A stretch of 64,000 bases of DNA from Theristus sp. LFF4_11 (taxonomy: Eukaryota > Nematoda > Chromadorea > Monhysterida > Xyalidae). The notes below the pieces were generated by a model. It worked only from the letters and a program-made list of their open reading frames with translations. It was not told the DNA's origin and ran no database searches. The DNA is taken from assembly GCA_030248135.1 (NCBI GenBank), contig JASANC010004863.1:48833-112832 (forward strand). Reading direction: 5' to 3'. A program made the position numbers and the translations under genes. Shown piece after piece: positions 16,559-64,000 of this stretch (positions are counted from its first letter, which is position 1; each line of letters opens with the position of its first letter).

Positions 16559-18344
16559 AAATTTTGACGAAGAAAGGTGGCACCAAATCTGTGTGTGATA
16601 CTGCTGGCTTTGAAAATAAAATTTGTATGAACAATCAATGTTTGACCGTTGACGCACAGTAATGACAAAAACCAACATTAGTTTCAAACAAACATACAGG
16701 CACACTGCACACACACACACGATGGGATATTTCTCTGTGCGTGCTCTGTTTGCTGGTGTGTTTGTCAGTGACCTGTGGAACATCGAACTCAAAAGCAAGT
16801 TCCCAAGAAGACGCAAACTAATATTTGCACTGTTTCTTTAAACCTGCCACGTTTTTAGCAAATACCGAGCCCGCGAAAGAAGAACGAACAAGCTCGGTTG
16901 GGAAAGAAGTCATAAATGGAGTCTTTGATTCCAACCAAATCTGATCCCAGTTCATTCTTTGCAGCCGAAACTTTTGTCTGCTCTGGTTTACGCGAAAAAA
17001 GTGACAGGTCTAAACAAACATACCGTATATGAGAATAAATAGACCACAGAAACCAGCATCACAATTGCAGATCAACTTGATATCGCAAAAAATCCTATCA
17101 TCAGCAAAAAACGTTGAGATGGAAAAAAACAAAAATCAATGTCAACATTTAGCGAATAGCTCCATGAAAAAAGTAGAAAAAACAAAAGTATCTCAGTCAC
17201 AAAAAGGTAGAAAATACAGATGGCCTGTGAAAAATTGTTCGCCCATCTCCACCAACATCAACTGGCTACCACCAAAAACCAAATTACCAAACCAGCTGAG
17301 CAACGAACACAAAAGCACACAACTACGCTAAATCGGCCGTGTAACAAATGGCGAAATTTGCCAACTTTTAATGTGAAATTAGAAATGTATAAATTTTCCA
17401 TGCTGAAGGTGAAACAACAAGGAAAGTAGCGAGAATGTTCTGCAGAACAATTTTGTTCATGAAAGCACGCTGTAAACGCATGAAAAAAGTATGTGAGGAA
17501 GTAGAAACGTCCAGCAAAAAAGTTCTAATGAACAAACATCATTCAAAAACCATAAACTGTAAAACGAAAAGGTTAAGCCGAGTGATTCACAACATTTTTG
17601 GCGTTGATTGCTCACCAAAGCCTTGAAATGTGGTATCACAAGTGTTATCTTCGCAATAAAACTGCTGCCCGACGGCACAGTTACAAACAGAATACAGTAC
17701 CTAAAAGCTTGAAGACAAAGAGAAACACTAAGTATACATGCTGTACTGAGCCACAAAGAAAGAAAAAACAACACGAAAATATCATGTCATCGAAATAAAC
17801 AAAATGCAGTTTGATACGCGCGAATGTTTGATTAAAACACCATACTGTTTTGATCTTCGGTATTTCGTGTAAGAACATGCAAAAAAGATAAAAGTGTCAA
17901 ATCATCACATTGCGGTGTTACCACGTATACAAGAAGCAGACACACAAGCGAAAGAATAAGTAAATAGCTATCGCAACGAAAACATCAGGGCGTGGAAAAC
18001 TGCGGGTGGTTCAGTTCACATAACACATCTAAATCTTCTTCACAGTTAACGTTCACCCGATCATGTCGGAAGGGGTAGTTGTTCTAATCCACATTAACCA
18101 TTTTCACCCAAATTAAAAAAAAACTACCAGCTTGCGATGTAACTCAAAAAGAAAGAGCACAACAACACACAACATCGGTACAGGGTGTTTATTGGAACGT
18201 GTCACTCGGTCAAAACGTCACACATTTCGACCGTACGCTTGTTTTACTCTCGGTGTCAAAAAACACATCTAAGACGTTTCAAAAAATCCCAGTTTTTTTT
18301 CGAGTGACATATTCCGCATAGCCAGACAAAAGATCACAATAAGC

Positions 18345-18374
18345 TCAAGCATGTGGCGGCACATGTCCTTGCCC

Positions 18375-18414
<40 letters not shown>

Positions 18415-21400
18415 CCAGCATTATGACCAGGCGGCGGAGGCTGCTGACCGCCCTGCGGAGGCAACTGTCCCGCACCGTGAGGCGGCATTTGACCTGCATG
18501 CGGCGGTAACTGTGCCGCGCCATGCGGCGGCATCTGACCGCCATGCTGCGGCGGTAACTGTCCGGCGCCATGCGGCGGCATCTGACCGCCATGCTGCGGC
18601 GGTAACTGTGCCGCGCCATGCGGCGGCATCTGACCGCCATGCTGCGGCGGTAACTGTCCGGCGCCATGCGGCGGCATCTGATGGCCTTGACCGCCCATTT
18701 GTTGATGACCACCCGGCGGCGGTGGGTGACCGCCCTGTTGGCCCGCTTGCTGTTGCATGTGCGGCGGCATTTGCCCGCCGCCTTGCGCGAATTGGTCAGG
18801 GTGCGGGGGCTGAAAAAACAACAGACAAACATTGAGGAGACAACAACAACGCACGTCACCACGACTACCATGATACAGTGTGACCGGTATTTTCAAACAT
18901 TAAAACAACCAACTGTAAACTAACGTGAAAACAGGAAACGAAAAACAGACAAACAAGAAGTGCGGGATAAAAGGGCGGTAGTCGGTTAAAAAGGGTAAAA
19001 CATGCAGAACGTTCTATTTCAATCAACCGAATGCTACCCCACAGAGGCTCCCAAGCGGTGGAAGAACCCCCTCTCACGAGATGCTGCTGCTGGCCCACGT
19101 GACCAATCGGAGGCATTTGTTGACCACCCTGTTGCATCATGTGAGGCGGCGGGTGTTGAAACGGTTGCTGACCGTTATGGGCGGGCGCGGGCAGCCGCAC
19201 ACCGCTGCCCGACTGTTGCGGGCCTTGTTTTTGACCCGCTTGCGGCGGTGCTTGCTGCAGGTGCTGCGGAGGGGGCATTTGATGCATCGGCCCACCGCCC
19301 TGCTGGTGGTGGTATGGTGGCAGTTGACCCTGCGGGTGACCCTGGCCCTGCTGAATGTGCGGCGGTACCCCACCACCAGCCTGTTGGTGGTATGGTGGCG
19401 GTTGACCGTGTGAGCCTTGTTGCATGTGCGGCGGTACACCACCACCGTGAGGGGGCATCATGTGCGGCGGAGGTGGATGCTGCGGGAAACTGACGTTATT
19501 CTGGAAAATGGAAAACGGAAACTGCCGTTGTTGACCCTGGAAAAATGATGGTGAGGAGAGTAACACAAGAGTCACAAGAAAACGAAAAAAAAATACGAAC
19601 AAAAATGTCGTGCGAAATGTGTGGCATGCTGCTACATGCTGGAACATACCATGCAATCTAACAAACAAAGAGACGTAAACAAAGATCAAATAATTCGTGC
19701 AAACATGAAAAGCAAATGAGACCTGTAAAGTGCCCTGGGATAAAGAAATCGCGGCTGCAAGTGCCAGCATGGGATGACACCAATCTTCTTCCACCACAAT
19801 CTAGCACTTTTGCAAAACAACACAAACACACACAGTGACACAAAAACGCTGTCACATTTTGCAAGCGATGTGTGCCCGTATGCACGATCTGAAGACTAGA
19901 TGACGTTTCTGGCAAGATAAAACGCATCAGAAAATAACCAAAAGAATGTTTCCATGATATGTAGAGCGCACAGACGAATCATAAAGAAACAGGGTTAAAG
20001 CGGAAACACCATTTAGTTTTTCGTCCGTACGCACAAACGTCGTTCTAAATCCCGTACGCAAACTAATCGTGTCCGTAATGCATTAAGATAGCACACACGA
20101 CACGATTTCTAAATCGCGTGGCCATTTTTTACGTGTCGTGTCCGTGCGTACGCACAAAAAACTAATTGCTAAACGCGCCTTTAATGAATCTTCCCACCAT
20201 GCGCGCAAACCAACGTGATAATACAGGTGATCGAGAACTCGGAACTTCAAGAATAACCGAAACACCGGTTTCACTGAAGAACCGCGAAATGTCAATGGTA
20301 AGACATGACAAAATGAACCGACAACCAATCAAATGAAAAAACCAAAACAAATCGAAGAACCAAAACCACAACGGAATTATGACGGCCGCTCGCTCACAAT
20401 TTGATTCGGATGCACAGCGGCCTGCTGCTGCGGCACCTGAGGGGGCATGCCGCCCTGTTGCGGGTGGCCACCGGCGGCGGCGCCCTGCGGATGCGTCATC
20501 TGATCGTACGGCATCTCCCAGCCCATCTGTTGCGCGTACGCCTGCTCGAACGCTCGCAGCTCCTCCGGCGTGTACTGGTCGCCCTGCTTTAATGCGCAGT
20601 AGAGTGAACGCTTTTTTGGTGAATGGCACCGTTGGATTGGTCAGCCGCGAACATGCTGTGATCATGATAACGACAGTGCAAGTAATAGTTTTTGATTGAC
20701 AGTGCAAACGATAGTGATTTTTAAAAAACGGCATGTTTGATACCAATGTAAAGCGGCATTCATGAAGCAGTATTTAGTGACGCATAGCTATGCGACACTA
20801 AACACTGCTTCACGAATGCCCCATAACGGTGTCAACAAGTTCACCGGCAGTGAAAGTGAAAACGTTTTGTTCTTGGTTCAAACTTGCACCACATAGTTAA
20901 TGACAGGTGGGTGTGAGTATTATGTAACTGCTGCAATTACAGCGATAATTGTCATTGAATTCATAGTTATACTATACTAATGTTCTGGATCTCTCGCGTG
21001 AACGTCTTCACGAGGACCATGATACTTTTTTCTATTTTCCGAATTATCATTCTCCACAACCAACCTGCTGATCGAGCGTCTCCCAGCCCTGCTCATTCTG
21101 GAACTCCTGCGTCTGTGCGTCCTTCATGAATTCGTCCAACGAAACCATGCGATCCTTGTTCTTGTCCATCTCCTTCATCACGTGCTCACGCATTCGTTCC
21201 ATCTCTTCCTCGCTGGAAAAACAGAAGTTATACCTATTTATTAAAATCAATGAAAAACGTATAAAATTTACAAAATTGAGTGAACACAGTTCTGTTTGGG
21301 CCACAGGAATCCCGGCTCTATTCTGTCTCGCTTAGGGTTGCCACGAGACATGTCTCGTCTCGTCATTTGTCTCGCTCGGACCCATTTTTGCTGTATCGTG

Positions 21401-24400
21401 TATCGTCTCGTCTCGCCAAATTCTCAAAATAGGCGTATCGTGTATCGTCTCGTACAATGACTTTGCGTATCGTGTATCGTCTCGTCTCGTGACTTTGCGT
21501 ATCGTGTATCGTCTCGTCTCGCCAAATTCCTGTCTCGCGGCAACGGCATGTCGTGTGAAAATGTTCATCTTTCTGTGTGTTACCTACCATTGAGCAAAAG
21601 GAAATGGTTGTCATTCTGGTCAGAAACATAGAAATTCCGAGACGACTAGATACGAAAAATTTTATTGTTTTTTTGGATTTTCTCATGGCACTTGCATGTA
21701 CTTCATCACGTGACGGTCTCAGGGATTTCTAGTAACAAACGTAAAGAAAGCAGTAGAGTATATCAGATTCCACAGCAGAGACATGATTCCAAATAAAAAT
21801 GGCACATTGTGGATGTCAGTGGGTACTGCTAAATGATTATGCATAAATATGGCAGATTTTTATTGTTTTGTGCTATTAAAAAAACAATGAAAACAATAAT
21901 AATTCGTGAAACATGATCAAATCAGAGCAAACGAATCAAATCATGAAATCAGAGCAAACGTTCAGACAAACTAGAAACACACGTTCCTTTCTGAGGCACA
22001 AATTGGAAATAAATTCAGCTTATTCAGCAAAACAGCACAAAAAGAAAAATTGCAAAACTCGCAAACACAAAAAACAAATACACAGTGAAATGTGAAAACG
22101 TAATCTGCCAAGGTTTTTTCATGTTTAGTTTGAAAAATACACAGTTGCTGACCGACACCGAAATTTGAATAAATAACACCACAAAAGCAACGCAGAAAAT
22201 AAAAAGCAAAGAAAGGTAAAAGGTTATTTCATTTCAAAACAACCGAAGCAGAACAGTAATAAATACCAAAAATTCTGTTACTAAAGCAGTCACAAGACAC
22301 GCGTAAAAAATCATAAAATAACGGTTGGTCCAAACCGTTGTTCGTTCGCAATTTGACTCAACAGTCAATGTCGTTTTTCTAAAGAGTGTGAAGTATTATA
22401 AGCACCCACCACTGACAGTATGAGCGCCAATCACAGGTCGCAGCTCATTCATCGTGAATCAAAAACTACTGGCTGGTTCACTGCTATTGTTTTCTAACCG
22501 ATCCAGAACAAATTAGCACTGCATCACTCCGTCAATGGTGCCCTCCGTTAGATCTCGCCGTCCGAGATGAAACACGAAAAAGTACTACTGTAAAACACAC
22601 GATTTTCAAATCATAATGCAATTTAGCACTTTGTGATTTCCGAACACAAACATCAAAAAAATTTGACTGCTTTTTTTGATTGCTTTGTTCTTACAGTTCC
22701 TCTTCTTCGTCTGTGACCCAGCCCGGCTCTTCGAATTCGCTGTCGCTGACATCCTCATTGTCTCCTTCGTCGTCAGTCGCACTGGCAGGCGGTAACTCCT
22801 GTTCCTCAAACATCAGTGACGACTTGTTGGCTGACGATTTTAGTTTTTTAACGTCTGCGGCTGGCAGAAGCGAATATCGAAAATTCACTGCTTGCACGTT
22901 GGCATTGATGAATGCCAACATCTCAGCATTTATTCCGCTCAGACGTGAACGATGCGGACTGTATAGCAAACCTGCACGACTGAAAAGCCTCTCGCTGGCC
23001 ACATTATCATTGACTGCATCTTCATTATTTGCGAGCGGTGCGTTGGTTGGAGTGCAGCCGACAATTTCGGCTTTCGTCGAAATGATCGTGATTTTCTTGG
23101 ACTTCATGATAGCTTTCGTGGCTGCGTTCGCCTTCATGGACGTGTTTGACGAACTGAACGCGGCGGGAACAGACGCATAGTTTTGATTTGATTGTTGTTG
23201 CTGTTGTTTCTGTTTCCGTGAGTTTTTCTGGTTTTTCTCCTGTGTGAGTTTTTGTTGTTGTTTTTTTGCTTTCGCGTGTCTTTTTGTGTGTGGCAATCAA
23301 TTGCGGAGTAAATAAATGTGTGCGCTTTGATACCTCAGGCATTATTTCCAAAAAAATTCACAAATTACTTGTCTCGTCTCGTATCGTCTCTTTATTTGTC
23401 TCGCTCGGACCAATTTTTGCTGTCTCGTGTATCGTCTCGTCTCGTGACCCTGCGTATCGTGTATCGTCTCGTCTCGTGACCTTGCGTATCGTGTATCGTC
23501 TCGTATCGTCAAAAATCCAAAAATGCTGTATCGTGTATCGGCTCGTACAATGACTTTGCGTATCGCGTATCGTCTCGTCTCGCCAAATTCCTGTCTCGCG
23601 GCAACCCTAGTCTCGCTCGCTCAAATAACGATCATAGCACAAACTTTCCTAATCGCCAAAACAACGAAACCCAAACATTTTTGTGGAAGTCACTAAGAAA
23701 ACGTTGTTCCCTTTTCTGATAAGCTTGGCAGTGGTAACATCGTGCTCATAACCAACCACTGTTACACAACTGATGAATTTAGTGGCATTACATAACATAA
23801 CATTTCAACTTTTGCTATTATAAAAAATGAATTCACTAAAATTCACCGTTCGCGCGGGTCGTAATTTCCCTCGGACGTGTTGTAGACCTTGTCCAACTCT
23901 GAGTTAAACAACGACTCCAGCTCCTGTTCGTCCCAGAGGCCGTTGCCGTCGAGGTCGTGCAAATGGAAAAACGTGCGCGGGTCGAACGTGTTCGGGTCCA
24001 TGTGGTCCGTGTTCTCCCAGACCTGCGCGGCAATATTATTGTGGTGGGGTTTGCCGATTGACAGCAAGAAACACCACTTTTTCGCCGGAAACATTTTGAA
24101 TCGGGACGGGTGTGAATGTGAATTCGGCGCAATGGCCTCGAATGAAGTTACGTGGACTCGATGTCTGTGCGTTCGGGGGGATCGAGCCCCGTCGACGGGT
24201 GTATGGCAGAAAAAACTCGACGGGCTTTCTACTCATTGGCGTTCTGTACGCTTCTCTGGGTTTGGACCGACTCAAAACATTGCCTAAAATCCGCAACAAC
24301 ACCAACAAATTCAAATGCGACCCAATCAGCTGATCGGCTTTTGCGTATTGGAGAAAAAAACGGTAATCAAGCAGCCTGATTTGTACTAGCAACCACTTAA

Positions 24401-26965
24401 CGACTGATTTGTCGTTTTTTGTGCAACATTCCACGCACACCTCTTCCAGCTGTTCCTTGCCGCCGGGGTGTTTCACTGGTTTGTGGTTCTTCTGCTTCGC
24501 TTTCTGCTGTTCATACTCTTTTTCGGCTCGTCTCCTTTCCATTTCATCTAATTTTGCTAGTTTGTGCTAAAAAACATCAGCGCACATAATCGTTATTTCA
24601 ATTATTTCGCAATAATTTCTTTAATAATATAGCATAAGATGAAAGTTTATCATTCAAACAAAACTTTATTTTATCAGACAGATTTCCGAAAACGCGCGAA
24701 CCTTTCGTTCGACCTCCTTTTTCATTTCGTATTGTTTGAAGTCATCCTTGCGTTGCTTGTCGAGGTCGTCCAAATCGGCGACCGTCTAAAACAAAACAAA
24801 AAAAACCTGTAGAGACATTTCATTCACTACTTTTTGCAATATTCCATTTGGTTTCGTCCAAAAAAGCGATTGATCGAAAAATGAGGTATCCAATGTTTAA
24901 CTGGCTGTGTAACCCAAAACAAAAGTACCCAATAGTGGCTATGTGGCCAGCATTGCTGGTCTGGGAACTGGATTTTTCCTTCTGCATATGCCTGCCACTT
25001 ACAATGTGTCGAATAAAATCAACCAATCAATTAATCAACCGAACTTGGTGGTACCCCAAGGAACCGATTTCTGAGCAATTTTTCCAACTTTACAACAATT
25101 TACCCACTCTGTTTTAGTTACGTCAACCTGAACCACATTTACTCAAAAAAACTCATCCAAACTTTCTTCTTTTTGATAAACCAGACGAAGCAACCGCCAC
25201 CGACCTTTTGTATCAGTTTCTTCAGATCCTCCCTTCCGAACGCCGCCAAATCACCGCTGTCGATGTGCTGAAAGATTTATTGCACAAAACAATCAGCATT
25301 GTCAAAATGCCAAAAGAATGGAAGCTGTTCAGCTGAAAACTTGACAAAGCATGATGATTGGCTGTACTATCGAACACTGGTCTGGTCCATTCAATTCGCA
25401 ACCACAACCAATCAGCTGATCGCCCAGCAGCTTCTGGTTGTTGTATAAACAGTAAAATGGAAGGGATAAAGCATGTGACCATACCCAGAATGAAAAAACA
25501 ATCAATCATCAATGATATGTCGTCTCATTCTCAACCAAACACTCACACCAGACAAAAAGCCAAACCAGACTTCGGTGGTGAAATGACAGACCAACCTGTA
25601 AATGACCGTCGAAATCGACGTTATGCGAGCCGCCGTCCACTTGAATCTGCTTCTGAATCGCCTCCTTTAGCCTTTCGATTTCTTTCATTTTCGCCTCGTT
25701 CAGTTTCGATCGAATTTCCGGGCCTAACTGATCGACGTGACTCGCAATTTTACCTTGCTGAAATTGTGAAAAAAACCGGCGGCATATTTTTGCGATGTTT
25801 TTTGCTCATATTATTTCCGGAGAACGACTGTTTCGCAATGTTATAGAAAAATGGAGTTGAACAGTTATGCATTCCTCAGAAAGTTCGATATTTTCTAACT
25901 GATCGTATATCGACCATCACCAAACTATACTGAACTGTGGACAGCTACTTGGAGAGTGAGACCAAATGCTCAAATCCTCAACTATTTGACAGAAAAGTAA
26001 CAACTAGAACAAACCAAACCGGAAGAAACGCATTTGCCGAAACTAAAGGACGAGAAATTTTTACCACAACTCGCTTGGCAACCTGCCATGTAGCTGGTGT
26101 GTTCACCACCGCCTACTTACTTTCTCACAATGGATAAAGCCACAAACGACTGGCTTGGCTTGCCTACTCATGGTGTCTTACACTTCTCTGGTATTATGCC
26201 GTGCACTGCAGAATAAAACTGACTGACTGACTGACGACAACAATATCACCATGTTCTCAGATCTCATCTCGTTTTCGCAACAAAGACTTCGAAAACAGTC
26301 TCGACCAGACCACCGCACGTATAATGTGTACGGATGGATTGCTTGTGACATCGTGCAACATTACTCTGTCTATAATTTAGTGCGCTGTTTTGTGTTCAGA
26401 CCAGGACTTCACCTTGATATCATCTTCGGGTAACTCCTTGAGCTTTTTCTGGAACTCGTCGTCGCCCTCGAGGATTTTCACGACCTCCATCAAATATTTT
26501 TCGTACGACAAATTGAGCATCTGCAATAATGAAAACGGGTTACAAAGATGAAAAATGGAATGAACGAACAATAAGATGACTATTAAAAACAAAAACATGT
26601 CATCTTCTGCGTTTGTTTGTTTGCACACGAAACGAAAAATAAAACTTGCAACTTCTTTTTCTCCTTCAGAGAAAATTTTATAGAACTTCAAGAGAATAGA
26701 AAAAACGTTTGGTGGTGCATCGATAGTTCGGTCTCTGTCTGACACTAGCAAAAGTTCAAAATGAACAAAAAAGGAGCGAAGAATCCGAGCAAAACAAATC
26801 AAACCAACAAAAACGTCAAAAAAACCGCACCGCTTGCTCCGCCTCCGGCGTTGGTGTCGTTGGCGGCTTTCGTCCAGGTGGCGCATTTTTTCGTGGCGGC
26901 GGCGCCACTACGAGAACCAACGCCAATGCACCCGTCAACGCGATGCACGTTAAGATTCTGGTCAT
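18345..26965 (-). CDS. Nucleobindin (EF-hand Ca2+-binding secretory/Golgi protein) with expanded C-terminus
   Basis: Nucleobindin binds calcium in the Golgi and secretory pathway. Eleven exons, in coding order: 26965-26831, 26520-26413, 25757-25596, 25267-25205, 24785-24702, 24566-24441, 24022-23847, 21212-21065, 20583-20398, 19536-19078, 18809-18345; about 703 aa. All phases join. It has a signal peptide (ILTCIALTGALALVLVVA), then the conserved LSYEKYLMEVVKILE block and a basic/acidic coiled helix. EF-hand 1 is DLDGNGLWDEQE and EF-hand 2 DKNKDRMVSLDE, separated by the acidic helix EEEMERMREHVMKEMD. Human NUCB1/2 are about 420-460 aa. The excess is two exons (about 307 aa) rich in Pro, Gln, Gly, His and Met, with 16-residue tandem repeats and a run of about 13 Gln. 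Exon 1 donor choice (GTGCGG at 26830) was set by phase. Introns contain a hAT element, a SINE and a palindrome. Confidence 0.93.
18405..18700 (-). repeat. In-frame 48-bp coding minisatellite in nucleobindin
   Basis: Units of about 48 bp encode GGQMPPHGA(G/A)QLPPQH, repeated about four times with alternating G/A at one site; shorter variants stand on either side. Next to it, at 18373-18415, a CAA-type run encodes about 13 Gln. The repeat length is a multiple of three, so copy-number change would keep the reading frame. Confidence 0.9.
20025..20170. repeat. Small inverted-repeat element in nucleobindin intron
   Basis: The left arm TTTAGTTTTTCGTCCGTACG and the right arm CGTGCGTACGCACAAAAAACTA are near reverse complements around a centre rich in GTCCGTAATG/ACACGACACG. 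This fits a MITE of about 145 bp; target duplication unclear. Confidence 0.5.
20755..20820. repeat. 66-bp near-perfect palindrome
   Basis: Two 33-bp arms meet with no spacer (centre GCATAG/CTATGC). Comparing them gives three mismatches. It lies in the intron between nucleobindin exons 8 and 9. With no loop it does not look like a microRNA precursor; a minimal foldback element is more likely. Confidence 0.85.
21333..23609 (-). mobile_element. hAT DNA transposon, internally deleted, 8-bp target duplication
   Basis: A 2277-bp element in the nucleobindin intron between exons 7 and 8. Ends are TAGGGTTGCCACGAGACA and TGTCTCGCGGCAACCCTA. The 8-bp duplication GTCTCGCT is perfect (21325-21332 and 23610-23617). 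Both subterminal regions are dense in CGTATCGTGTATCGTCTCGT repeats, likely transposase-binding arrays. A minus-strand ORF (23296-22691) carries the hAT C-terminal dimerisation signature ASERLFSRAGLLYSPHRSRL followed by an acidic tail ending DEEEEL. The N-terminal catalytic part is missing, so the copy is non-autonomous. Confidence 0.9.
22691..23296 (-). pseudogene. hAT transposase C-terminal fragment
   Basis: A 201-codon ORF inside the hAT element. The first 60 residues are Lys/Gln-rich low complexity. The middle holds the hAT dimerisation motif (NDNVASERLFSRAG...SRLSGINAEMLAFINANVQ), and the last 40 residues are acidic. The RNase-H-like DDE core is absent, so it cannot act as a transposase alone. 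It may be only the last exon of an ancestral gene. Confidence 0.8.
24150..24310 (+). mobile_element. tRNA-derived SINE, copy 2 (5' truncated)
   Basis: It shares the T-arm segment GGATCGAGCCCCGTCGA and the body AAAACTCGACGG...TACGCTTCTCTGGGTTTG with the 12106-12295 copy. The box A region is missing or diverged. It lies in a nucleobindin intron. A more distant relative may be the stretch 26085-26235, which shares TACTCATGGTGTCTTACACTT-like sequence and ends in (ACTG)n. Confidence 0.65.
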
Positions 26966-27143
26966 TTTTCTTGTTGGCTCGAGTTTTATGTTTACTGAAG
27001 AAAAAAAAGAACAAAGGTTGCGTCCAGTACCGAAGACGAGGGGGGGTGGGGGGGTACACCCCCCCCCAGAGCACCCGAGACCTCCGCGTGGGGGGGGTGG
27101 GGGGGGTCACGCGACACCCACCCCCCAAAACCTGACACTGGAC

Positions 27144-28949
27144 TAGGGTTAGGGGGAAAAAAATCCGGATTTTTTTTTAAATTAAAAAAAAATTAAAAAA
27201 AAAAATTTTTTTTTACAAGTTAGGTTTGTTCGAAGCGTCTCGTCGAGCTGAGTTCATCTAGACTATTTTCAGAACGATCCGGAAAACTATAAGAGCGAAA
27301 ATCGTGTTTTATTGAAATTATGTCCATTTCATAGAGGGAAAGTTGCATTTTCAACAGTAAAACAGGACAATTTTCGACGTGTACTTGAATATTGAACCGT
27401 TCTTAGTTGTTCCTCTTTAGAAAATTACCAAAATTTGACTGTGTTCAAAAATTCCTGTTTGCTGTAGCTAAGTCGGCAACCCCTGTCGACCCGGTCGCCC
27501 CCCCCAAGACACTTACTTTCAGGTTCAACCAGCTATGCTATCTGCCACATGGCGAGAGCCCACTCTTCAAATCATCGTATCGAAAACACGTACCATGATT
27601 TCGCGATCACGTTGCGGGCAACTGACAGACGCAAGTTTAACACATTAGTTTAGCTCAGCACGCAATCAATCAATCAATCAATCAATCAATTTTATTTGTA
27701 TGCCTCACGGCCAGTTCACATCAACACATTCACAAAACTTCCATTATGCAAAACAAACACAATTGATGTCACAAAAAAAACCTAAAGAAACACAAGATTA
27801 TTGATGAACTTGGTGAATGCATGAATGAAAGCAAGCAAAAAGTCGATGCAAACGAATGGGCAGATGACTGCCCGGGTATTCACACAAAGAAACAAAATCC
27901 ACAAAATAAAACCAACCGTCGACAGTCAGAAACAATTGAATGTTAAAAAAACGCGCAAACACAATTGAAGCTTGAGAGAAGAAATAAATAAAATAGCGCG
28001 ATCACGAACCGACAACATCAGACAGCGCACAACGGCCACGATTGACATTCAGGCACGATTAAATTAAGCAAGAGAAAGCAAAATATACACGGCACAGTTG
28101 CTTTTCTTTTCTTCATCGCAGTTTTTCTCTCTTGTTTTTTTTCTCTTTTTTTTCTTTTTTTTTCTTTTTTGTTTTTTTTTTGTTATTTTTTTTTGTTCAT
28201 GGGCTTTTGTTTTTCCTGTGCCATCCCAAATACAGCTAACAGCAAGTGATGAGCAACAGCAAGCAAGTAACAGTGCTAGTTAACAAAAAGAATACCCTGA
28301 ACACAAAAGCCACAAGAGCACACAGAAAAAACGCGAGATAAAAAGAGCTGTGACATGGACACACACTTGCACCAGATACAAGAAAAAAGAAAACAACACG
28401 AAACGTCGCACAAAAGAGCACTTGTGATTCAAAACAAAAACGCAATTTTTAACATGTGGCCATGTTATCGGGTATCTGAAAAACGGTCGTGTGATGTGGT
28501 ATTAACCAACATCTCCGCTCCAATTGTTTAACAATATATCGCACAACTCCATTGTAGACCTATAACATACGCCAATCAACAAAATATCATGTTCATCTCA
28601 TGGCCTACCGACTGAAAAAACATGTTCTAAGTTGCAAGAAAACGATTTCTGAAACGATATTTCAATTCAGTTAAGTCATTTCAACGCTAAAAATTGACTC
28701 TAGAAGTCATCCAAATCGAAAAACATGGAGTACGTCGGTCAATGACCAAGACTGTACCTAAGCACACAAAGAAGTTGGGAAGAAAATTTGGTTTGAACTT
28801 TCAAAAAATTATGCCATAAATCGAATTTTCAGAGCAAAGTAGAAGAAAAATTTTTCAAATTTTTTTTTAAGTTTGAAAAAAAAATCCAAATTTTTTTTTA
28901 AACGAAAAAAAAATAAAAAAAATTTTTTTTTTCAAAGCCCCTAACCCTA
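27144..28949. mobile_element. hAT-like MITE with telomere-like ends, copy 1, 8-bp duplication
   Basis: It begins TAGGGTTAGGGG and ends CCCCTAACCCTA, flanked by the perfect 8-bp duplication CACTGGAC (27136-27143 and 28950-28957). Subterminal regions are long A/T homopolymer blocks. Without its nested 780-bp insertion it is about 1026 bp, matching the 1033-bp copy at 33321-34353. No coding capacity. Confidence 0.9.
27666..28439 (-). mobile_element. Nested retroposon with (TTGA)n tail
   Basis: This insertion interrupts the 27144 MITE where the sister copy reads CACGCAAGTTTTAAC. It is flanked by the duplication ACGCAA (27660-27665 and 28440-28445). The left edge is a (TCAA)n run, which on the minus strand is a (TTGA)n 3' tail. 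A tetranucleotide tail plus target duplication suggests a LINE-mobilised SINE. A T-rich stretch lies at 28098-28200. No ORF of substance. Confidence 0.7.
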
Positions 28950-29087
28950 CACTGGACCATCCACACCCCCCCCCTCAAAATTTGCTAGACACCCCCCCAC
29001 CCCCCCCCTAGATGGACCTAAGTAACAGTGACACCCCCCAAAAATTTTCTCGGACCACCCAAAAATCATGAATTTTTGCTCAAAAAC

Positions 29088-32967: not shown

Positions 32968-34766
32968 CAGGGTTGGTAAAAAACCTGTTTTTACATTGCC
33001 AGGAAAAAACGGTTTTTTCCGTTTTAAAACCGTTTTAAAACCAAAAAACCGAATGTTTCCCAGCTCCCAAAATTTCCAAAACTTGGCCCCTTGAACTCAA
33101 AACAGGAAATACATCAAAATTAGTATTTTTGAGCAACGTAGAACGCTATGTTGTCGGGGATACAACGTACCCAATTTGCTATTTTTTGCTACCCAATGCT
33201 ACCCAATTTTTTGTTTCAAATATTCAAATGAAATCAATTTCGCTTTTATTCGTTTCCGAACAGCACGTTCAATAAATTGAAAACGACGACTGAACAGTGA
33301 CCGTGTTGGTGTGGTGTGGGTAGGGTTAGGGGAAAAAAATCCGGATTTTTTTTTTAAATTAAAAAAAAATTAAAAAAATTTTTTTTTTACAAGTTAGGTT
33401 CGTTCGAAGCGTCTCGTCGAGCTGAGTTCATCTAGACTATTTTCAGAACGATCCGGGAAACTATAAGAGCGAAAATCGTGTTTTATTGAAATTATGTCCA
33501 TTTCATAGAGGGAAAGTTGCATTTTCAACAGTAAAACAGGGCAATTTTTCACGTGTACTTGAATATTGAACCGTTCTTAGTGGTTCCTCTTTAGAAAATC
33601 ACCAAAATTTGACTGTGTTCAAAAATTCCTGTTTGCTGTAGCTAAGTAGGCAACCCCTGTCGACCCGGTCGCCCCCCCCCCCCAGACACTTACTTTCAGG
33701 TTCAACCAGCTATGCTATCTGCCACATGGCGAGAGCCCACTCTTCAAATCATCGTATCGAAAACACGTACCATGATTTCGCGATCACGTTGCGGGCAACT
33801 GACAGACGCAAGTTTAACACGTTAGTTTGGCTCAGCACGCAAGTTTTAACATGTGGCCATGTTATCGGGTATCTGAAAAACGGTCGTGTGATGTGGTATT
33901 AACCAACATCTCCGCTCAAATTGTTTAACAATATATCGCACAACTCCATTGTAGACCTATAACATACGCCAATCAACAAGATATCATGTTCATCTCATGG
34001 CCTACCGACTGAAAAACATGTTCTAAGTTGCAAGAAAACGATTTCTGAAACGATATTTCAATTCAGTTAAGTCATTTCAACGCTAAAAATTGACTCTAGA
34101 AGTCATCCAAATCGAAAAACATGGAGTACGTCGGTCAAAATGACCAAATAATGACATTTACCTGAGCACACAAAGAAGTTGGGAAGAAAATTTGGTTTGA
34201 ACTTTCAAAAAATTATGCCATAAATCGAATTTTCAGAGCAAAGTGGAAGAAAAATTTTTCAAATTTTTTTTTAAGTTTGAAAAAAAAATCCAAATTTTTT
34301 TTTTTAACGAAAAAAAATAAAAATAAAAATTTTTTTCAAAGCCCCTAACCCTAGGTGTGGGGAGCGGGGACGAGATTTACAGAACTGCAAAGTGAAACCG
34401 GTAGCGGAAGGCGTTTGAAAAATAACATCTAATTTCAGTTACCGTTTCAATCGATAACGTCGTCAGTCAGTTTGCATCTGCTTTTAGTTTAGCAGTCACC
34501 TTGTCTTCATCGTATTTCACTTGACCCATGAAACAAAAGCTTCTGCAAAATGATGCTTCACCAGTTCAGTTCGACACAGTTCACTGCACCGTTTTTTCAA
34601 AAATATAATTTTACATTTTATCAATCAAACGAAGAATTGTAATTTTTGACCACGTAATTTGAAAATTTTTAAGATAAAAACCAGTTCTTTATTTTTCCAG
34701 GAAAAAACTGAAAAAAAACGGTTTTAAAACGGAAAAGAAACTGTTTTTTTCCTGTGCCAACCCTTG
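32968..34766. mobile_element. Outer hAT-like element hosting a nested MITE
   Basis: The left end CAGGGTTGG is followed by AAAACCGTTTTAAAACC. The right end has AACGGTTTTAAAACGG and finishes CCAACCCTTG. The arms are inverted and flank the 33321-34353 MITE. I see no convincing 8-bp target duplication, so the limits are tentative. Confidence 0.55.
33321..34353. mobile_element. hAT-like MITE with telomere-like ends, copy 2, 8-bp duplication
   Basis: A 1033-bp element with TAGGGTTAGGGG and CCCCTAACCCTA ends, flanked by the perfect 8-bp duplication GGTGTGGG (33313-33320 and 34354-34361). It is nearly identical to the 27144 copy outside the nested insertion there. Confidence 0.92.
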
Positions 34767-46330: not shown

Positions 46331-48639
46331 ATGACCTGTTTTATTGTCATTAATTATTAATTAGCGCGTGTTTTATTTTAGTTTTTTAGTATACACCAAA
46401 AAAAACTAAAAAAAGTAATGTGAAAGCCGTTGATTTTTACAACGGCACAAAAAAACAAATAAAATTTTTATGTATCCGTGGGACATGCAACCTATATGAT
46501 ACCAACGAAAAATCAAACGCACGCCACGCCACACACAGCGCACGCACACAAAAAAAGCTTGGTCAAACCGTCAATTTTGGAAAAAATACGACGGTTTCGG
46601 TACGGTTTGCCAAAATTTTGCCACGGTACGGTCAACGGTACGGTAATTGTATTTTGATGACGGTACGGTTTTCGGTACGGTTTGGAAATTTTAAAATCGC
46701 ACGGTACGGTCACGGTACGGTACGGTAAAACCGTACCGCCCGTATTTTTACGGTTTTTACGGTTACCGTGGCAACTATAAGCTGTACAAACGCTGTTAGG
46801 AGAATCCCATGCTATTTTTTTGGTTTTTATGACTACCGAGTGTATCTAATACACTATCCGCAGGTTTTTTCACTGAAGCATACATTTATTTGACAAATGC
46901 CGAAGACTACAACACACCTCCATTGAACATGACTGGCAGTAAAGCTGATTCAAAATCATTTTGCAAGAAAATGAAGCGGAATAAACAATACAACCCGACT
47001 AGGACACGAAACATGAACACAATACACGTCTGTAAGATAATTCAAACGTAATGTCGCTGAAGACAAGGCCCTGTTGACGCTTTTGGACAATCAAGGAGCG
47101 CAGTTTCGAAGGGAGACGGTTACCAGGCATTTTCGGTTTGAATCGATTTAAAATCGCTCTCACTAACAACCGTTTGTATACTGTATAAATAAAAAAGTCA
47201 CTACTCACTACACACATAAAAACAAAGACCTTAGCAGGGCTTATTATCATAGCGTTTGTACGGCTGATGCAACACACTCGGAATACATAACACACACGCA
47301 CATGCGTGCGCAGTGTTCCAACACTTTTGCTCGCCATTGTACATACATACTCCATTCTTATTTTATTTTTATCAACACTTTTTTCATTTACAAACAATAA
47401 GCTACGTCATTCCTTACCTTAAATGCTGTCCAAGTTACATGTTGTACGTGTAACGCAATACACACAAGGCAAATATCAAGTAATTTGAACAGTTTGAGAT
47501 TTCTGATCGATGGATCTTTTGCTACGCAGAAATCCGCAAATACGATCCGGGCATACATACAAGTGACAGCAAAATGAAATTTTTATCAAACAACCCCTCT
47601 CAAGCTCGTTATGATTGTTCAAAGAATTTTATCAAGATTTCAAAGTAAGCCCTCATACCCGCATACCATTTGCATATTTCAAAATTGTTATGTGCACCTG
47701 ATCTCAGGACCTTTTTAAAATGACGAACCGACCATCGACTGATGTACATGTAATCCGATAGTCGTGGTGGACGTCTTTCTTGCAGAATGTATCAAACTTG
47801 GAAAGCAGAATAAAGTCTCTTTTTTATTTACAGATATAACATGCTTTGGTTACGGAAAAACAAACATTTTTTATCACTGGAAAGCTTTTAAAGCGACTGA
47901 AAATGTTACTAGTAAAACTTCCTGTCCTCGCCCTGTATTCGGTAGTGATTCCGCGGCTTCTGTTTCACTTTTCATCTGAGCCCTCCACTGCTTAACCTTA
48001 GCGTCAATATCTTAACGTCTTCACGTCTACCGTGAAGTCCTGTTAACGTGAATTCTACCCGTATGTATGGATTCAATAGTGCAGATGAATACAATGCCAA
48101 ACATATTTTTTTGCGATAGAAAACGTCGTTTGTGCCATTGCAATTTGTAATTGGAAGTGGTTGATCTTTTTAAATAGAAATAGCATTAACCGTGAATGTT
48201 TTAACCGTAAAACCATTTTCAGATTCAGATTTCACTAATGACAAGTAAAATAAAGTAACGAAAACGAGATATTACTGTATTGTGCATCTTTTCATTCTTA
48301 TCCGTGGGTGGATGCGCAAATTGTAATTTCCCAATAGATTGCAGGACCGAGTTTCAGGGTACAGTACATAAGATACATACATGTACATCGACATGCAATT
48401 CACCATTGATGTCGCGTCGAATTTCTTACGCTTCAAAGGTGAACTGGCTGATTGAACTCGTTGAAATGCACTTTTCAATTGCAATGCGCACAGCGGTTTT
48501 CAATGTCTACTCGGTGCTAAGCAATAAGCATATCGAACCACATTTTGAAAACGACCGCGTCTTGTTGCTTCTAAGTTTGTTGAGAGGAAGTGCACTCGTA
48601 TTGGACGTACTTGTACATGTATTGTATTTTCGGTGCGGG

Positions 48640-48860
48640 GTCAACTCCGGCCCACGCATTTCCGGCCCACGCATTAGCGTCCCGACATTTCCGGCCCACC
48701 CATTACCGGCCCACCCATTACCGTCCCATCCATTACCGGCCCGACATTTCCGGCCCACTCATTTCCGGCCCACTCATTTCCGGCCCGCCCATTACCGGCC
48801 CAGCCCAATAATCAGTTCTTCCTTCGCTGTATTTCGCTACGGACAACGAAAATAAACTGA
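48640..48860 (+). repeat. GGCC minisatellite element, long copy
   Basis: The head GCGGGGTCAACTCCGGCC is followed by about nine units of 17-20 bp (CCATTACCGGCCCA or CATTTCCGGCCCA), then the tail CCCAATAATCAGTTCTTCCTTCGCTG. Related copies lie at 15585-15720 and, inverted, at 49540-49740. Confidence 0.85.
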
Positions 48861-49432: not shown

Positions 49433-49539
49433 TGAAAAAAGAATTAAAAAAATCGAACCCCTAGTTCAATGTGTAACCGCCTGATAAATGTGATTTTCCT
49501 AATGAAATATAGCAGTGGGAGGTAGTTGAAGTCACTGAA

Positions 49540-49740
49540 GCGAATTATTGGGCTGGGCCGGTAATGGGTGGGCCGGAAATGAGTGGGCCGGAAATGCGTG
49601 GGACGCAAATGAACGGGGCCGGTAATGGGTGGGCCGGAAATGGGTGGGCCGGAAATGAGTGGGCCGGAAATGTTGGGCCGGAAATGCGTGGGCCGGAAAT
49701 AACGGGACGCAAATGAACGCACGCCTGTATTTTCTGTTTG
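49540..49740 (-). repeat. GGCC minisatellite element, inverted copy
   Basis: Reverse orientation of the 48640 element: GGGCTGGGCCGGTAATGGG followed by about nine units of GTGGGCCGGAAATGGGTG type. It lies about 0.7 kb from the plus copy and so forms a long inverted pair. Confidence 0.85.
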
Positions 49741-50437
49741 TTCTGTGACCCCATGCATTTGCAGACGTGGAAAGTAATATTAGTTCCATGCTTGATGCGG
49801 CAATTCAAAAGCGCGCAACTGCTTCACCGGTATTCAAGAAGACACTCCGGTTACTTCACCAATTTTGAATTCCCGCACCAAAAATGAAACTGCCTTTTCA
49901 TCTATGCGGGCATCTAAACAGAATCAAAAGAAGTGATTATAATACATTGTACAATATGTTAAATCAGGTTCATTGCTACATAGACGGGTATACATTTGTT
50001 TTGTATTCGACTAGCCGATTTTGGGTAATTTAATTTTTTTCATTTTTGGCAGCTCATAATATGAAAAAAAAAGTATCACAATCATAATTTTGGCTACCAG
50101 AAAACAGATAGATTTTAAAAAGCATCGAAGGTTTGCATAATCTTAGGTCTGTTTATGCCTGACGTATGCAGACGTACATCGACGTACGTCAGGTATGAAC
50201 GCTAGCATAATAACACAGGACCTAAAGTGACGTGACGTGCCGTACATGCATACGTGTGTACGAACGGTAGTATGCAATAACACGGGACCCAAACTGACGT
50301 GACGTGACGTGGCGTGCCGTGCCGTGCCGGATGCGCATACATACGTCTCGTGTAAACGGGCCTTCTTGCAGTCTGCTTGAAAGAAACATGTTATCGAGAT
50401 CGGTTCACCAAATCTCAGCAAACTATCAATTTATTAC

Positions 50438-53476: not shown

Positions 53477-56400
53477 ATGGTCTCGACACGTCAACTCTGC
53501 GGTGGTGTCAGCGTGCTGGTGGCAGTGTACGTGGCCACGCTAATGGTCATTGTCACCGCAGAAACATCGGATAATCAAGTATCTCAATCTGAACATCGCA
53601 AGGTTTGGGTCTGCTATTATCGGTCGTTCTGCTGTTATTTAGTTTATTACTAGCAGTTGACCCGTGCCTACGGCCCGGGTAAATTATGTTTGCGATTTTG
53701 TTAACAGCAAGGTGCGCACCCGCGGATTTGTCGACATTTGTTTGCTTCTGTTTTCCTGAAACGGGAAACGTGTTGATTTTTTTAACCAAGGCTTTCAAGC
53801 ATTTAAATTCGTTGATACCGTTTACTGTTTGGGCAAGCGTTCTGCTTTTGTTTTTATCTCGAGAACCCGCTCAATTTTTAAAAGTGCTTTTCAAACGTTT
53901 CAAATGTTTGTTTTCAAGCTTTTCGATTCGGTGTCAATTCTATGTCAAAAATGATTCTTTTATAACTCTGTTTCGCTGATTTTGCAATCGCTGAGAAATT
54001 TTTTTTCTAAACTAATTGAATTTGCAGCTCACATTTGTTCTCTGTTAGTTAAGTTAAACTCGGTTAAAGGCAAGACGTCGTTCCCGTTAATTTTTTCAGA
54101 ACTGGCCGGAATCGATACCCGTTTATTTGCACAATCCCATTTGTGTTTTTCATAGTAAGCCCGCTTTTTGCACAAAAATGTTTTTAAATAATATGATTCC
54201 AGTTTCTGCTGTTTCAAAATTGCAAATTTGTATTCACAATTTTGCTTTTTGAAAGTCACAGAATTTTAGTTAAAATCTTGTAAAAACTACAGTTTGTTTA
54301 GTTTTTTCTGATTTTTTCTTGTTGACTGAAATGATTTGTATACATTCTTAAAAGTGGTTTCCTTGATTTCTGATCAGAGGTTGCTTGCAATGAGTCGTTG
54401 TGGGTTCCTAATCCTAAACCCAATCCTAAGCCAAGCCTTTTTGATAAGGTGAAAATGATCAATTTAGTTTTTGCATTTTTTCTTTCCTGTGTTATAGGGC
54501 AGGGGCCACCGCTACTGCACATGCACCTCTTTTAATAATGATGCATCACAGACTGGAAATTGTCCAAACGTGACTTGATTGTTTGACAATTTCATTTTTC
54601 AAAATCGCTAAGTTTGACCAAAAGAGGCCCGATTATTTTTTTATTTTACAGAACCTGGCCGAAATCGATACCCGTTTATTTGCACAATCTCATTTGTGTT
54701 TTTTATAGTAAGCCCGCTTTTGCACAAAAATATTTTTTAAACAATACGATTTCAGTTTCGGCTGTTTCAAAATTGCAAATTTGTGTTCACCACAATTTTG
54801 CTTTTTGAAAATCACAAAATTTTGGTTAAAATCTTGTAACAACTGCTGTTTGTTTTGTGCTGTCACAATCGATCTTCATGACCTGTTTCAATTTGCTTTG
54901 ATCCAATGTTCCGCATCAACGTTACCCGTGTATTTGTTCAGAAAAAATATGGGATTCAATTATTATTCACAGGAAAACAAATTTTGTAAGAAAAAAAGCA
55001 ATAGCCGATTTCGTTACTGTTGATTTTTCAAAGTCGCAAATTCGTTTTATTGGGAGACCCGCTTTTCCAATTCTTGCTATCGATCATAATCGGATGTGCC
55101 GTCCATTCTGTGAGATGATCGCTTCTTTAGAGCAATTCGTTCCCGCTCATTATAATCTCATCTTTTTACATCACAACTACCAACCAACCTGACCATTGCG
55201 ACGTAACGTTGAGGAAAGAACTGAATGAATCATGATGACTCGTTGTTGAAAACCAAAAGAGAGAAAATGATTCGCATAGAAAAAATTGTTAAAAAGTGAC
55301 AGCAACATTTGGATTTCGCTACCTTAAATAGCAAAAAGTTGGACAGACAGACAGACGGACAGACAAAGTAATATTTTAGTATAGTAGATGAATCGGGAGC
55401 ACTGATTGGATTATTGGTCAGTCAAGTACAGTATGTTTATTTAATCCTGCCACTTTTTTAGAAGCACACAAAGCACGTGAAATAGAAATAACGCGATCGG
55501 AGTGTCGCAAGGAGTTTTAGTAATTTAGCCACAATTGTAGAGCTGTGATTTCCACCCAACACCGACATTGTATATACCGTATTCGTTCTTCTTAATTCAA
55601 AGTTTCGCTCGCATGCTCTGTGTTCTGCGGAAAAAAGTGACAGGTTTAAACAAACATTCTTTACGAAAAATATTTTGTCAACAAACGTCACCAAAAAATA
55701 ATTGTGCCTGAAATGAAACCTAGAATATTACAACCTTGTGGCATTTTTGTGGGGTCACGCCGTTCTAGTTCCAGTTCGTTCGGGTTCGGGATGTCCTAGG
55801 GGACATGTGACAGAGGACTCCAACCCGGCTCAAATTCCTTGCTGAAAAAAGGCGAATCCTTCGTGTTTTTAGGTCAACGCGCCAATGAAACGCTTCTATT
55901 CATGGCACAACGAACACCCCGCGGAGAAACGATTTTATTCGTGGAATCAACCGGCGCAGAAGAAGTTCTACTCGTGGAACCAGCCCGCTAAAAAGTTCTA
56001 TTCTTGGAACCAGCACCCGAGCAAGTGCGTTTACCCCACCTCCCTCCCTCCTTCCAGGTGTACCCCGTTTATAAGTCCCCCCCGCCCTAGAAGGAACGAA
56101 GAATAATGGGCATGTATATGCAGATGTTCGAGCACTTATCGATTCACATGCACAAATCAGTGCAAAAACCACTTTTGGCTAAAAAATAGTAAATTTTGCT
56201 AAATAATTTTTTTGCTGTTGAAAATTGAAGTGCATCTCATGTTCACGAGTATGTGCATTATTTGTCATGCGTGAAACCAAACAATTCAAACTTTGACGAT
56301 GAACGGTTTTTCCACTCTTCAGTCCGTTCCTGCTGTGCATTTTGCAAGGACGTACCAGAAAATTGCATTTTTTTCAAAATTTTTGTGTTGTTTGGCCATA

Positions 56401-56740
56401 TAAGGATGCCTGACATCAAGACTTCTTAGTATTTGACCCATTACATGCATGTTGAACCAAGCATGCATGCTATTTATTCGTTTCAGGAAACGCGCTGGCT
56501 ACCAATAGTGAGTTTATGTAACTGTGTGTGTGTGTGTGTGTGTGTTTGTTTGTTTTCAGTCCTTCTTCAGTACTTTTTCTAATTAACTTTGGTGTTTGTT
56601 TTTTCATCGGAATTAACAAAATCATGTTGAATGTGGCGTATATTTTCTATTTTATCCATAGATATTATCCAAAAAAAATCTAATTTTTCAGCCGCCCATT
56701 CATTTCATACGGCAAGAGGAGCACCGGCAACGAGGATTAA
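53477..56740 (+). CDS. Neuropeptide precursor with four FYSW peptides and one amidated peptide
   Basis: A secreted peptide precursor of 115 aa in four exons: 53477-53602, 55873-56024, 56487-56507 (21-nt microexon) and 56692-56740. Phases 0, 2 and 2 all agree. The N-terminus is a signal peptide (GGVSVLVAVYVATLMVIVTA). Exon 2 encodes four repeats cut by dibasic sites: FYSWHNEHPAE-KR, FYSWNQPAQ-KK, FYSWNQPA-KK and FYSWNQHPS-KKR. The microexon and last exon join to AGYQYRPFISYG-KR followed by STGNED and stop. Gly before KR predicts an amidated AGYQYRPFISY peptide. F-x-S-W resembles the kinin core FxSWG-amide, but here Asn or His replaces Gly and no amidation signal follows. The first intron (2.27 kb) is filled with repeats. 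I know no family with this combination. AATAAA occurs near 57183. Confidence 0.85.
53650..55395. mobile_element. Repeat element complex in neuropeptide intron 1
   Basis: It starts near GCAGTTGACCCGTGCCTACGGCCCGGG and ends with a GACAGACAGACGGACAGACAAAG run, then TATTTTAGTATAGTAG. It contains family F sequence twice (53861-54300 and 54560-54890), with the family G repeat inserted between (54395-54551). The element class is not determined; there is no transposase or reverse transcriptase signature. Confidence 0.6.
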
Positions 56741-62218: not shown

Positions 62219-62563
62219 TTTTGTTATGTTCGTTCAACCTTTTTTGAAGGAAAGAAGTTACTTTCCAGTTGTAAACTGCCAGAAATATGTCAGCCAATAA
62301 TGACATTGATTGGACTAAATGCGCCGTTTGAAAATTCATCCCGTGTGTCGGCTCAACTTTATTGGTCAACCATAGTAAAACAAATTACAGTGAAGATATC
62401 AACGTGAACAATTATGAACAAGATATGTTGTGGAAACTCAAAAGTGAGAAAAGGTTATCAAAAAAATCAGAAGTAACCTCTAACAGCTGACTTTTGACTG
62501 CAATAAATAAAACATCTAGCTGCTCCACGAAATCCAATGAAGTCGATTATTACAACAGTAGCT

Positions 62564-63022
62564 CATAGTTGTTCTAGGGGGGGGCCTGGGGGGGGGGGCG
62601 GCCCCCCCCCCAAAAAATTTTCGAATCTATCTCTATCAAACAGGTTTTTTCGGCTCAGCTATTATCTATCTAAAAAAAATTCTCAGCCAGCTATCTATCT
62701 GAAAATTTTTGTCTTCGAAGACATAAAATGAGTTAATTTTTGACCAAAATTAACTATTTTTGCTCGTAATTCTTGAAAATTTTGCTAATTTTAGGTAAAA
62801 TACGCGTTTATACTTGATTTTTAGTGTATTTTTAGCATTATTTTGCTGTTTTTATAGCTTTTTTTGCGTTTTAGCTATCTATCTATCAAATTTCAAAATT
62901 TTGACCGGCCCCCCCCCCCGCGGCCCCCCCAAAATTTTCCAGCTATCTATCTATCTAGAAAATTTGCTCCAGCTATCTATATCGGCCCCCCCCCCCAACC
63001 CCTCGGCTCTGGAACAACTATG
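62564..63022. mobile_element. MITE with G/C homopolymer tracts, 8-bp target duplication
   Basis: A 459-bp element with ends CATAGTTGTTCTAG and CTGGAACAACTATG, flanked by the perfect 8-bp duplication CAGTAGCT (62556-62563 and 63023-63030). Runs of G and C sit just inside the ends, and ATCTATCT-rich blocks fill the body. Eight-bp duplication suggests hAT mobilisation. A truncated copy lies at 29088-29431. Confidence 0.9.
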
Positions 63023-63274
63023 CAGTAGCTACCTAAATTTATGACCTGGAATCCTTGGAAGAAAACAGTCCTAAGAACAATAACAACAACCAATCACAGT
63101 TCAATCGATAACAACAAAGCACCATCGTTTGGAAGTACAGACTTGTGTTTTCTGAGCTGAAGGCAATCACAAGACAAAGGTGAAAACTCAAACAAAAACA
63201 AGAAAACACAAAAGAACAATTAATCATACATTGCAGAAAGCATTTGGATTCAGAACAAAAAATCACACCGGCCG

Positions 63275-63776
63275 TCACACCAAAAATCTCTCATGCAACA
63301 ATTCGAACACGCGTTCATTCACGACCATCATGATTGCGCCGCCGGGCGCCAGTCGCATCACCTTCGGGACGAACCCTTTGTAGAGCGCCCAAAAGCTGCA
63401 AACATTAAAAACAACACTCTTAAAATTGACACTCGCTCAATGTAATCAAACGATTCTAAAAGCCGATTACCCAAATGATTTCAATCAGATTCACTGTCGC
63501 TTTTTTCTTTGACCGTAACTTCACGCAAAGTCCACTCAACCTTCAACCAATCAGGCGAACCTGTGCAAAATGAAAAAAACCACCGCAAACTTGCCCCTCC
63601 TCCATTCGAACGGTGTTCAACGTTCGAATGCACGTGTGATATTTTCGGACGCCCGCCGGTTGCGGCCCTTGAATGCGACTTTTCGCCACGTCAAATGGCG
63701 TGTTCGCCAGGCACGCCACGAAACCGCCAGCGAAACCGAGCGAAAACTGCCACACGAACGGGCGCTTGTTGGTGCC
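63275..63776 (-). CDS. SLC25A21: Mitochondrial 2-oxodicarboxylate carrier, C-terminal two exons
   Basis: Inner-membrane carrier that exchanges 2-oxoadipate and 2-oxoglutarate. Only the last two exons are in the window: 63776-63595 and 63395-63275; the rest lies beyond 64000. The third mitochondrial-carrier signature is present as PFDVAKSRIQG (P-x-D-x-x-K), in the context NTPFDVAKSRIQGPQP that is specific to the ODC branch. The last exon reads ALYKGFVPKVMRLAPGGAIM and ends shortly after, as in the human protein. The junction keeps phase only if the intron starts with GC (GCAAGT at 63594), which gives EEGFWALYKG and matches the family. The final helix is intact. Confidence 0.93.
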
Positions 63777-64000
63777 CTGTTCAAGATGCAGCTTAGTGTG
63801 TCTGTGAGCGCTCGGGATGAGCCAACCAAATCGCCATTGCTTCTTTCAAAACCGATGTGTCTTCAGATTTTTTTGCACTGCATGCAAAACAGGCTTCAGG
63901 CTTATAGGCTCATAGGCTTCTCGGGATTTATTTACCTAACACCCCCCCCCCTTAGTATTTGCCTGCGGCCTAAATTCGCCGATTTAGCACGCAAGTGGGC

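Follow-up and report, generated by a model that had tools for sequence, protein, structure and literature searches.

Within a 64,000-nucleotide stretch of the nematode Theristus sp. LFF4_11 (the window; positions are window positions unless a contig is named), one locus spells the tetrapeptide FYSW four times between paired basic residues and continues into a peptide followed by an amidation signal. A sequence-only reading took it for a possible new neuropeptide family, with the FYSW units as free-acid relatives of kinins or an unrelated convergence. The locus raises two questions: is it a gene, and from which family of precursors does it come?

Structure of the FYSW precursor gene

The window gene lies on the + strand and consists of four coding exons of 126, 152, 21 and 49 nt, with GT-AG borders at three of three introns. 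Exon 1 (53477..53602) carries the start codon and the leader MVSTRQLCGGVSVLVAVYVATLMVIVTA, and ends in phase 0 with AAG before the donor gtttgg. Exon 2 (55873..56024; acceptor tttttag, donor gtgcgt) encodes four FYSW peptides preceded by KR, KR, KK and KK, all on the + strand and all expected from the translation as free acids: FYSWHNEHPAE (55894..55926), FYSWNQPAQ (55933..55959), FYSWNQPA (55966..55989) and FYSWNQHPS (55996..56022). A 21-nt microexon (56487..56507, +; acceptor tttcag, donor gtgagt) finishes the KKR site and adds AGYQ plus two bases of the next Y, so that the amidated peptide is indeed split as had been claimed. Exon 4 (56692..56740, +; acceptor tttcag) supplies the remainder of AGYQYRPFISY, a GKR consisting of the amidation Gly and KR, the tail STGNED and the stop.

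Joined, the exons translate in frame to a precursor of 115 amino acids with a stop codon only at its end, laid out as MVSTRQLCGGVSVLVAVYVATLMVIVTAETSDNQVSQSEHRKVNAPMKR-FYSWHNEHPAE-KR-FYSWNQPAQ-KK-FYSWNQPA-KK-FYSWNQHPS-KKR-AGYQYRPFISY-GKR-STGNED, in which runs of at least two basic residues occur seven times. Because AGYQYRPFISY is directly followed by GKR, an amidated product is predicted, whereas none of the four FYSW copies has a Gly after W-x. In-phase joining, tandem peptides at KR/KK sites, one amidation-ready peptide and FYSW copies devoid of the amidation Gly had all been proposed, and the translation bears each of them out. A visible signal peptide had been claimed too, and of this a hydrophobic leader stands: the nine-residue hydropathy mean of MVSTRQLCGGVSVLVAVYVATLMVIVTA exceeds 1.7 for segments starting at residues 7-22, and we call the leader signal-like on hydropathy only. 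Intron 1 also holds two direct repeats, at 54087-54326 and 54640-54882, that are 80-85% similar to each other.

The DNA of the repeats varies more than the peptides do. Across the four FYSW cores all differences are synonymous (TTC/TTT, TAT/TAC, TCA/TCG/TCT), and two FYSW units have just 67% and 80% DNA identity to the reference unit. The exons are also richer in GC (50-53%) than the introns (29-40%). In the 159-Mb assembly FYSWNQ is spelled at six sites, three in the window gene and three on contig C400, which is a second haplotype copy with 97.5% identity across 7.2 kb. C400 ends before exon 1, and over exons 2-4, which the comparison covers, 0 of 222 bases differ; in the 1411 columns around them there are 43 substitutions and 57 gap columns, part of the latter being an alignment-edge effect. 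When the exon mask was slid along the 7.1-kb alignment, it was free of differences at 916 of 6281 offsets, so haplotype identity of exons 2-4 taken alone is no more than supportive. C400 further carries about 1 kb (1385-2450), in the position of window 62563-63044, with matches at several sites 27-34 kb into the window (33321-34353, 27133-27665 and 28440-28956); it is a dispersed repeat in which the haplotypes differ.

That the repeats merely sit in a chance open frame is very improbable: exon 1 is without a second copy and many mask placements are equally free of haplotype differences, but four in-phase exons with canonical splice sites follow a signal-like leader, seven basic sites frame like peptides, the cores vary only synonymously and GC shifts at the exons. 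We consider it confirmed that this is a real four-exon peptide precursor gene, its exon joining being predicted from DNA.

Elsewhere the window contains an LDL-receptor class A domain (15009-15299, +) and a mitochondrial carrier protein fragment (63546-63845, -), both over the Pfam cut-off, an EF-hand-like fragment (21050-21331, -) under it and a hAT transposase dimerisation-like fragment (22694-23296, -) just under it. Short tandem units, FRPTHFRP and ISGPPISGPP, lie in open frames of opposite orientation at about 48600-48830 (+) and 49450-49780 (-). An Rfam search of the window gave no match. In the genome as a whole there are 84 matches to Col_cuticle_N, the N-terminal family of nematode cuticle collagens. 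Two of these loci were read and both have a cuticle-collagen N-terminus with downstream Gly-X-Y blocks; on these grounds the sequence is taken as nematode. Searches of the genome run without a positive control gave no match to the SL1 family RF00198, to the exact SL1 22-mer, to pectate lyase PF03211 or to an NLP-15b peptide pattern. Across 14 control genomes 7tm_1 was also without a match, so these genomes contain no useful animal control.

Comparison with kinins and other nematode precursors

The window gene has the traits of an NLP-class precursor, namely a leader that is signal-like by hydropathy only, basic sites, and short peptides that are repeated or amidated. It shares with kinins (leucokinins) an aromatic F-Y-S-W core and several like copies between dibasic sites in a secreted precursor, here four copies at KR/KK behind the hydrophobic leader. 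Unlike kinins, it has no Gly after W-x, places the core at the N-terminus of the peptide and encodes an additional amidated PFISY peptide. The C-terminal FX1X2WX3amide that defines kinins is found in 0 of the 4 FYSW copies; lacking the amidation Gly, they do not make the window gene a kinin gene by the defining motif.

Two catalogued nematode peptides have a similar core. The accessible text of PMC7913504 gives C. elegans NLP-43 as KQFYAWAamide and terms it kinin-like, with a non-canonical precursor. NLP-43 and the window gene are both nematode precursors with an F-Y-(A/S)-W core, although NLP-43 is amidated C-terminally and the window copies are extended free acids, a comparison made with the NLP-43 peptide and not its precursor. 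A KQFYAWA-type peptide is absent from the window gene, and 0 of 24 QFYAW spellings in the genome read KQFYAWAG. For nlp-97, the accessible part of PMC8764417 gives the motif NPYSW, places it in clades 8, 9, 10 and 12 and reports it missing from C. elegans. Compared by motif only, nlp-97 shares Y-S-W with the window gene, but NPYSW itself is absent from the precursor, and with serine spelled TCN it occurs in the genome in one spelling, outside any peptide-like context.

Pfam and PDB searches with the window precursor returned weak matches only, with best E values of 0.058 and 0.53, and we attribute these to chance. Likewise, two matches in an IMG/VR pattern scan were each a lone FYSWNQP outside dibasic framing and were set aside as chance. 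The amidated YRPFISY peptide presumably resembles sulfakinin (NLP-12) or SIFamide; we considered an origin from either and rejected it.

Kinin-type precursors and candidate receptors in the same genome

The genome was scanned for kinin-type peptides with the pattern F-x-x-W-x-G-K-(R/S). It occurs at 47 places, against 28 + 28 = 56 for the reversed pattern used as a control, which means that the total is not above chance. The signal lies instead in a cluster: 13 of the 47 places fall on one contig, C3035. Among the 34 places off this contig, 23 were read and none has repeated, basic-framed copies; the 11 left unread are locus L056 and ten places to which no locus was assigned. On C694 a single FYAWEGKR spelling was rejected, as it has neither repeats nor a dibasic site directly in front.

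C3035:18308-27547 (L061-L067) holds two genes on the same strand, separated by 6.4 kb if the short model of the first is used. In that model gene A has exons 18308-18660 and 18966-19071 and codes for six copies, four of FYAWS-amide and two of FYPWS-amide, with Gly-stop after the final one; alternatively, the last exon of gene A may be 22090-22225. Gene B is modelled with three coding exons (25520-25833, 25941-26176, 27312-27547) and would yield FYSWEGD-amide, RAPMSAY-amide, RAPMRAY-amide and nine KFYSWA-amide copies, again with Gly-stop after the last, and with acidic spacers present. According to the accessible text of PMC7913504, the non-insect kinin motif is FX1X2WX3amide. That motif, as W-x-Gly-basic, is found in six gene A and nine gene B copies, with S or A at X3 in FYAWS, FYPWS and KFYSWA, and these peptides resemble C. 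elegans NLP-43 (KQFYAWAamide). Judged by their predicted products, genes A and B look like a pair of canonical kinin-type precursors, and we regard this pair as a weightier result than the window gene itself.

Receptors were sought with an approximate sequence of the Drosophila leucokinin receptor. Two class-A GPCR loci, L068 (C826:86741-87175) and L069 (C839:23229-23636), came top of 69 matches to this approximate query, at 113.6 and 108.5 bits with the next at 64.2. They are 63% identical to each other on TM1-4, where they have 43-44% identity to the approximate leucokinin receptor versus 34-35% to human NPY1R; between these two reference sequences identity is 39%. C826 has 18 of 30 residues in common with the approximate leucokinin receptor in TM7 and 15 of 35 in TM6. 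Among PDB chains, C826 matches NPY1R best over TM1-4 (92.3 bits) and the neuromedin-K receptor best over TM6-7 (49.3 bits). A third locus, on C192, has 42% identity to the approximate leucokinin receptor along a shorter segment. C826 and C839 are plausible candidates for kinin receptors.

Descent and possible working of the window gene

Although they lie on different contigs, the window gene and gene B both have FYSW immediately after a dibasic site, and both pair it with an amidated P-x-x-(S/A)-Y peptide. In gene B the first FYSW copy is C-terminally extended (FYSWEGD-GKR) and adjoins RAPMSAY-GKR and RAPMRAY-GKR, which resemble YRPFISY-GKR of the window gene. The two differ in that KFYSWA occurs amidated nine times in gene B, which also has acidic spacers and is modelled with three coding exons, while the window gene has no amidated FYSW and four coding exons. 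Local alignment of the mature parts scored 109 against gene B, a value reached by 0 of 500 shuffles that kept K/R positions (maximum 73), by 0 of 23 core permutations and by 0 of 2000 random cores. The alignment with gene A scored 78, which one of 500 shuffles equalled or passed. A local BLASTP E-value for gene B was set aside because it is inflated by repeats and composition correction was off. The similarity to gene B rests on one tetrapeptide and its dibasic framing, and the P-x-x-(S/A)-Y likeness is weak alone, since 1756 of 200000 random 7-mers were as good.

From these resemblances we infer, as reasonably probable, that the window gene shares descent with the C3035 genes. Our preferred reading, held with moderate confidence, is that it is a nematode neuropeptide precursor and, most likely, a paralogue that has diverged from the kinin-type (nlp-43-like) precursors of the same genome. 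Of the two relationships originally offered for the FYSW units, that of kinin relatives is now better supported than convergence, because multi-copy amidated FYSWA, FYAWS and FYPWS precursors exist in this genome.

Convergence keeps some ground nonetheless. We judge it rather unlikely that the gene belongs to an unrelated nematode nlp family, new or catalogued, for example a form of nlp-97, that has come to FYSW independently. When the mature part of the window precursor was searched for across the genome at protein level, with eight first-look candidates scored, neither gene A nor gene B appeared at E values up to 10, and this search provides no statistical link to gene B; the window core is N-terminal and unamidated; and nlp-97 has, in the accessible part of PMC8764417, a motif with YSW in common. 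What speaks against convergence is the exact FYSW after dibasic sites in both genes, each coupled to an amidated P-x-x-(S/A)-Y, and, for nlp-97, the missing NPYSW in the precursor and the unpeptide-like setting of the sole genomic NPYSW found.

Neuropeptides are generally made by leader-directed secretion, convertase cleavage, trimming and amidation, and the activity of kinins resides in their amidated C-terminal core. By this route the leader would bring the window precursor into the secretory pathway, presumably of neurons, a prohormone convertase would cleave at KR, KK and KKR, a carboxypeptidase would remove the basic residues, and the Gly of RPFISY-G-KR would be converted to an amide. The end products would be four short free acids starting with FYSW and one amidated AGYQYRPFISY. 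The kinin-type paralogues would present an FYSW, FYAW or FYPW core at an amidated C-terminus, whereas the window gene would present it at the N-terminus of an extended peptide. Since the core is N-terminal and has no Gly after it, ordinary kinin agonism is not expected of the FYSW products; these may bind another receptor, act differently, or be antagonists or by-products. The amidated PFISY peptide appears to be the likeliest classical ligand of the gene.

It is improbable, to our minds, that this peptide is the sole functional product of a kinin-family precursor whose FYSW units are relic spacers. The amidation site is found on the PFISY peptide only, which suits such a reading, as does the general knowledge that kinins act as C-terminal amides, but the core is exact in four of four copies with synonymous changes only, unlike a decaying spacer.

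A more ambitious version of the paralogue reading, which we put forward tentatively as a possibility well short of even, is that this nematode keeps a complete kinin system made up of two FX1X2WX3amide precursors and the receptor pair C826 and C839. The window gene would then be a third, neofunctionalised kinin-family ligand gene. Its FYSW cores would have left the amidated C-terminal position for a free N-terminal one and would now be recognised by another receptor or counteract the kinin receptor, and its amidated PFISY peptide would be a relative of the RAPMSAY-type peptides in gene B.

In the searchable literature, which excludes supplements and most subscription papers, FYSWNQPA, FYSWNQ, RPFISY, PFISYamide and FISYamide were not found, nor was FYSW in a nematode context. 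Strings of the type FISYG, ISYamide, PFISY and FYSWamide matched only a cockroach leucokinin and a growth-factor antibody, and for FYSWA, FYAWS, FYPWS, KFYSW, FYAWA and RAPMSAY a leucokinin review was, by title, the only neuropeptide match. The original claim of a new neuropeptide family goes beyond the evidence. With nlp-43 and nlp-97 compared by motif, the gene looks like a diverged offshoot within a kinin-like/nlp-43-like set of nematode precursors, with novelty that reaches as far as the searchable literature.

The accessible text of a 2021 review states that multi-copy kinin-type genes have not been identified in nematodes, and also mentions leucokinin immunoreactivity in Ascaris neurons, the source of which is not known. 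Two neighbouring multi-copy FX1X2WX3amide precursors, together with a diverged relative in the window, would bridge NLP-43 and the kinins of arthropods and molluscs. They provide a defined set of ligands for the candidate receptors C826 and C839, namely KFYSWAamide, APFYAWSamide, FYSWNQPA and AGYQYRPFISYamide. Taken together, the C3035 and window genes would make it testable whether the kinin system was lost in nematodes or was reduced in some lineages only.
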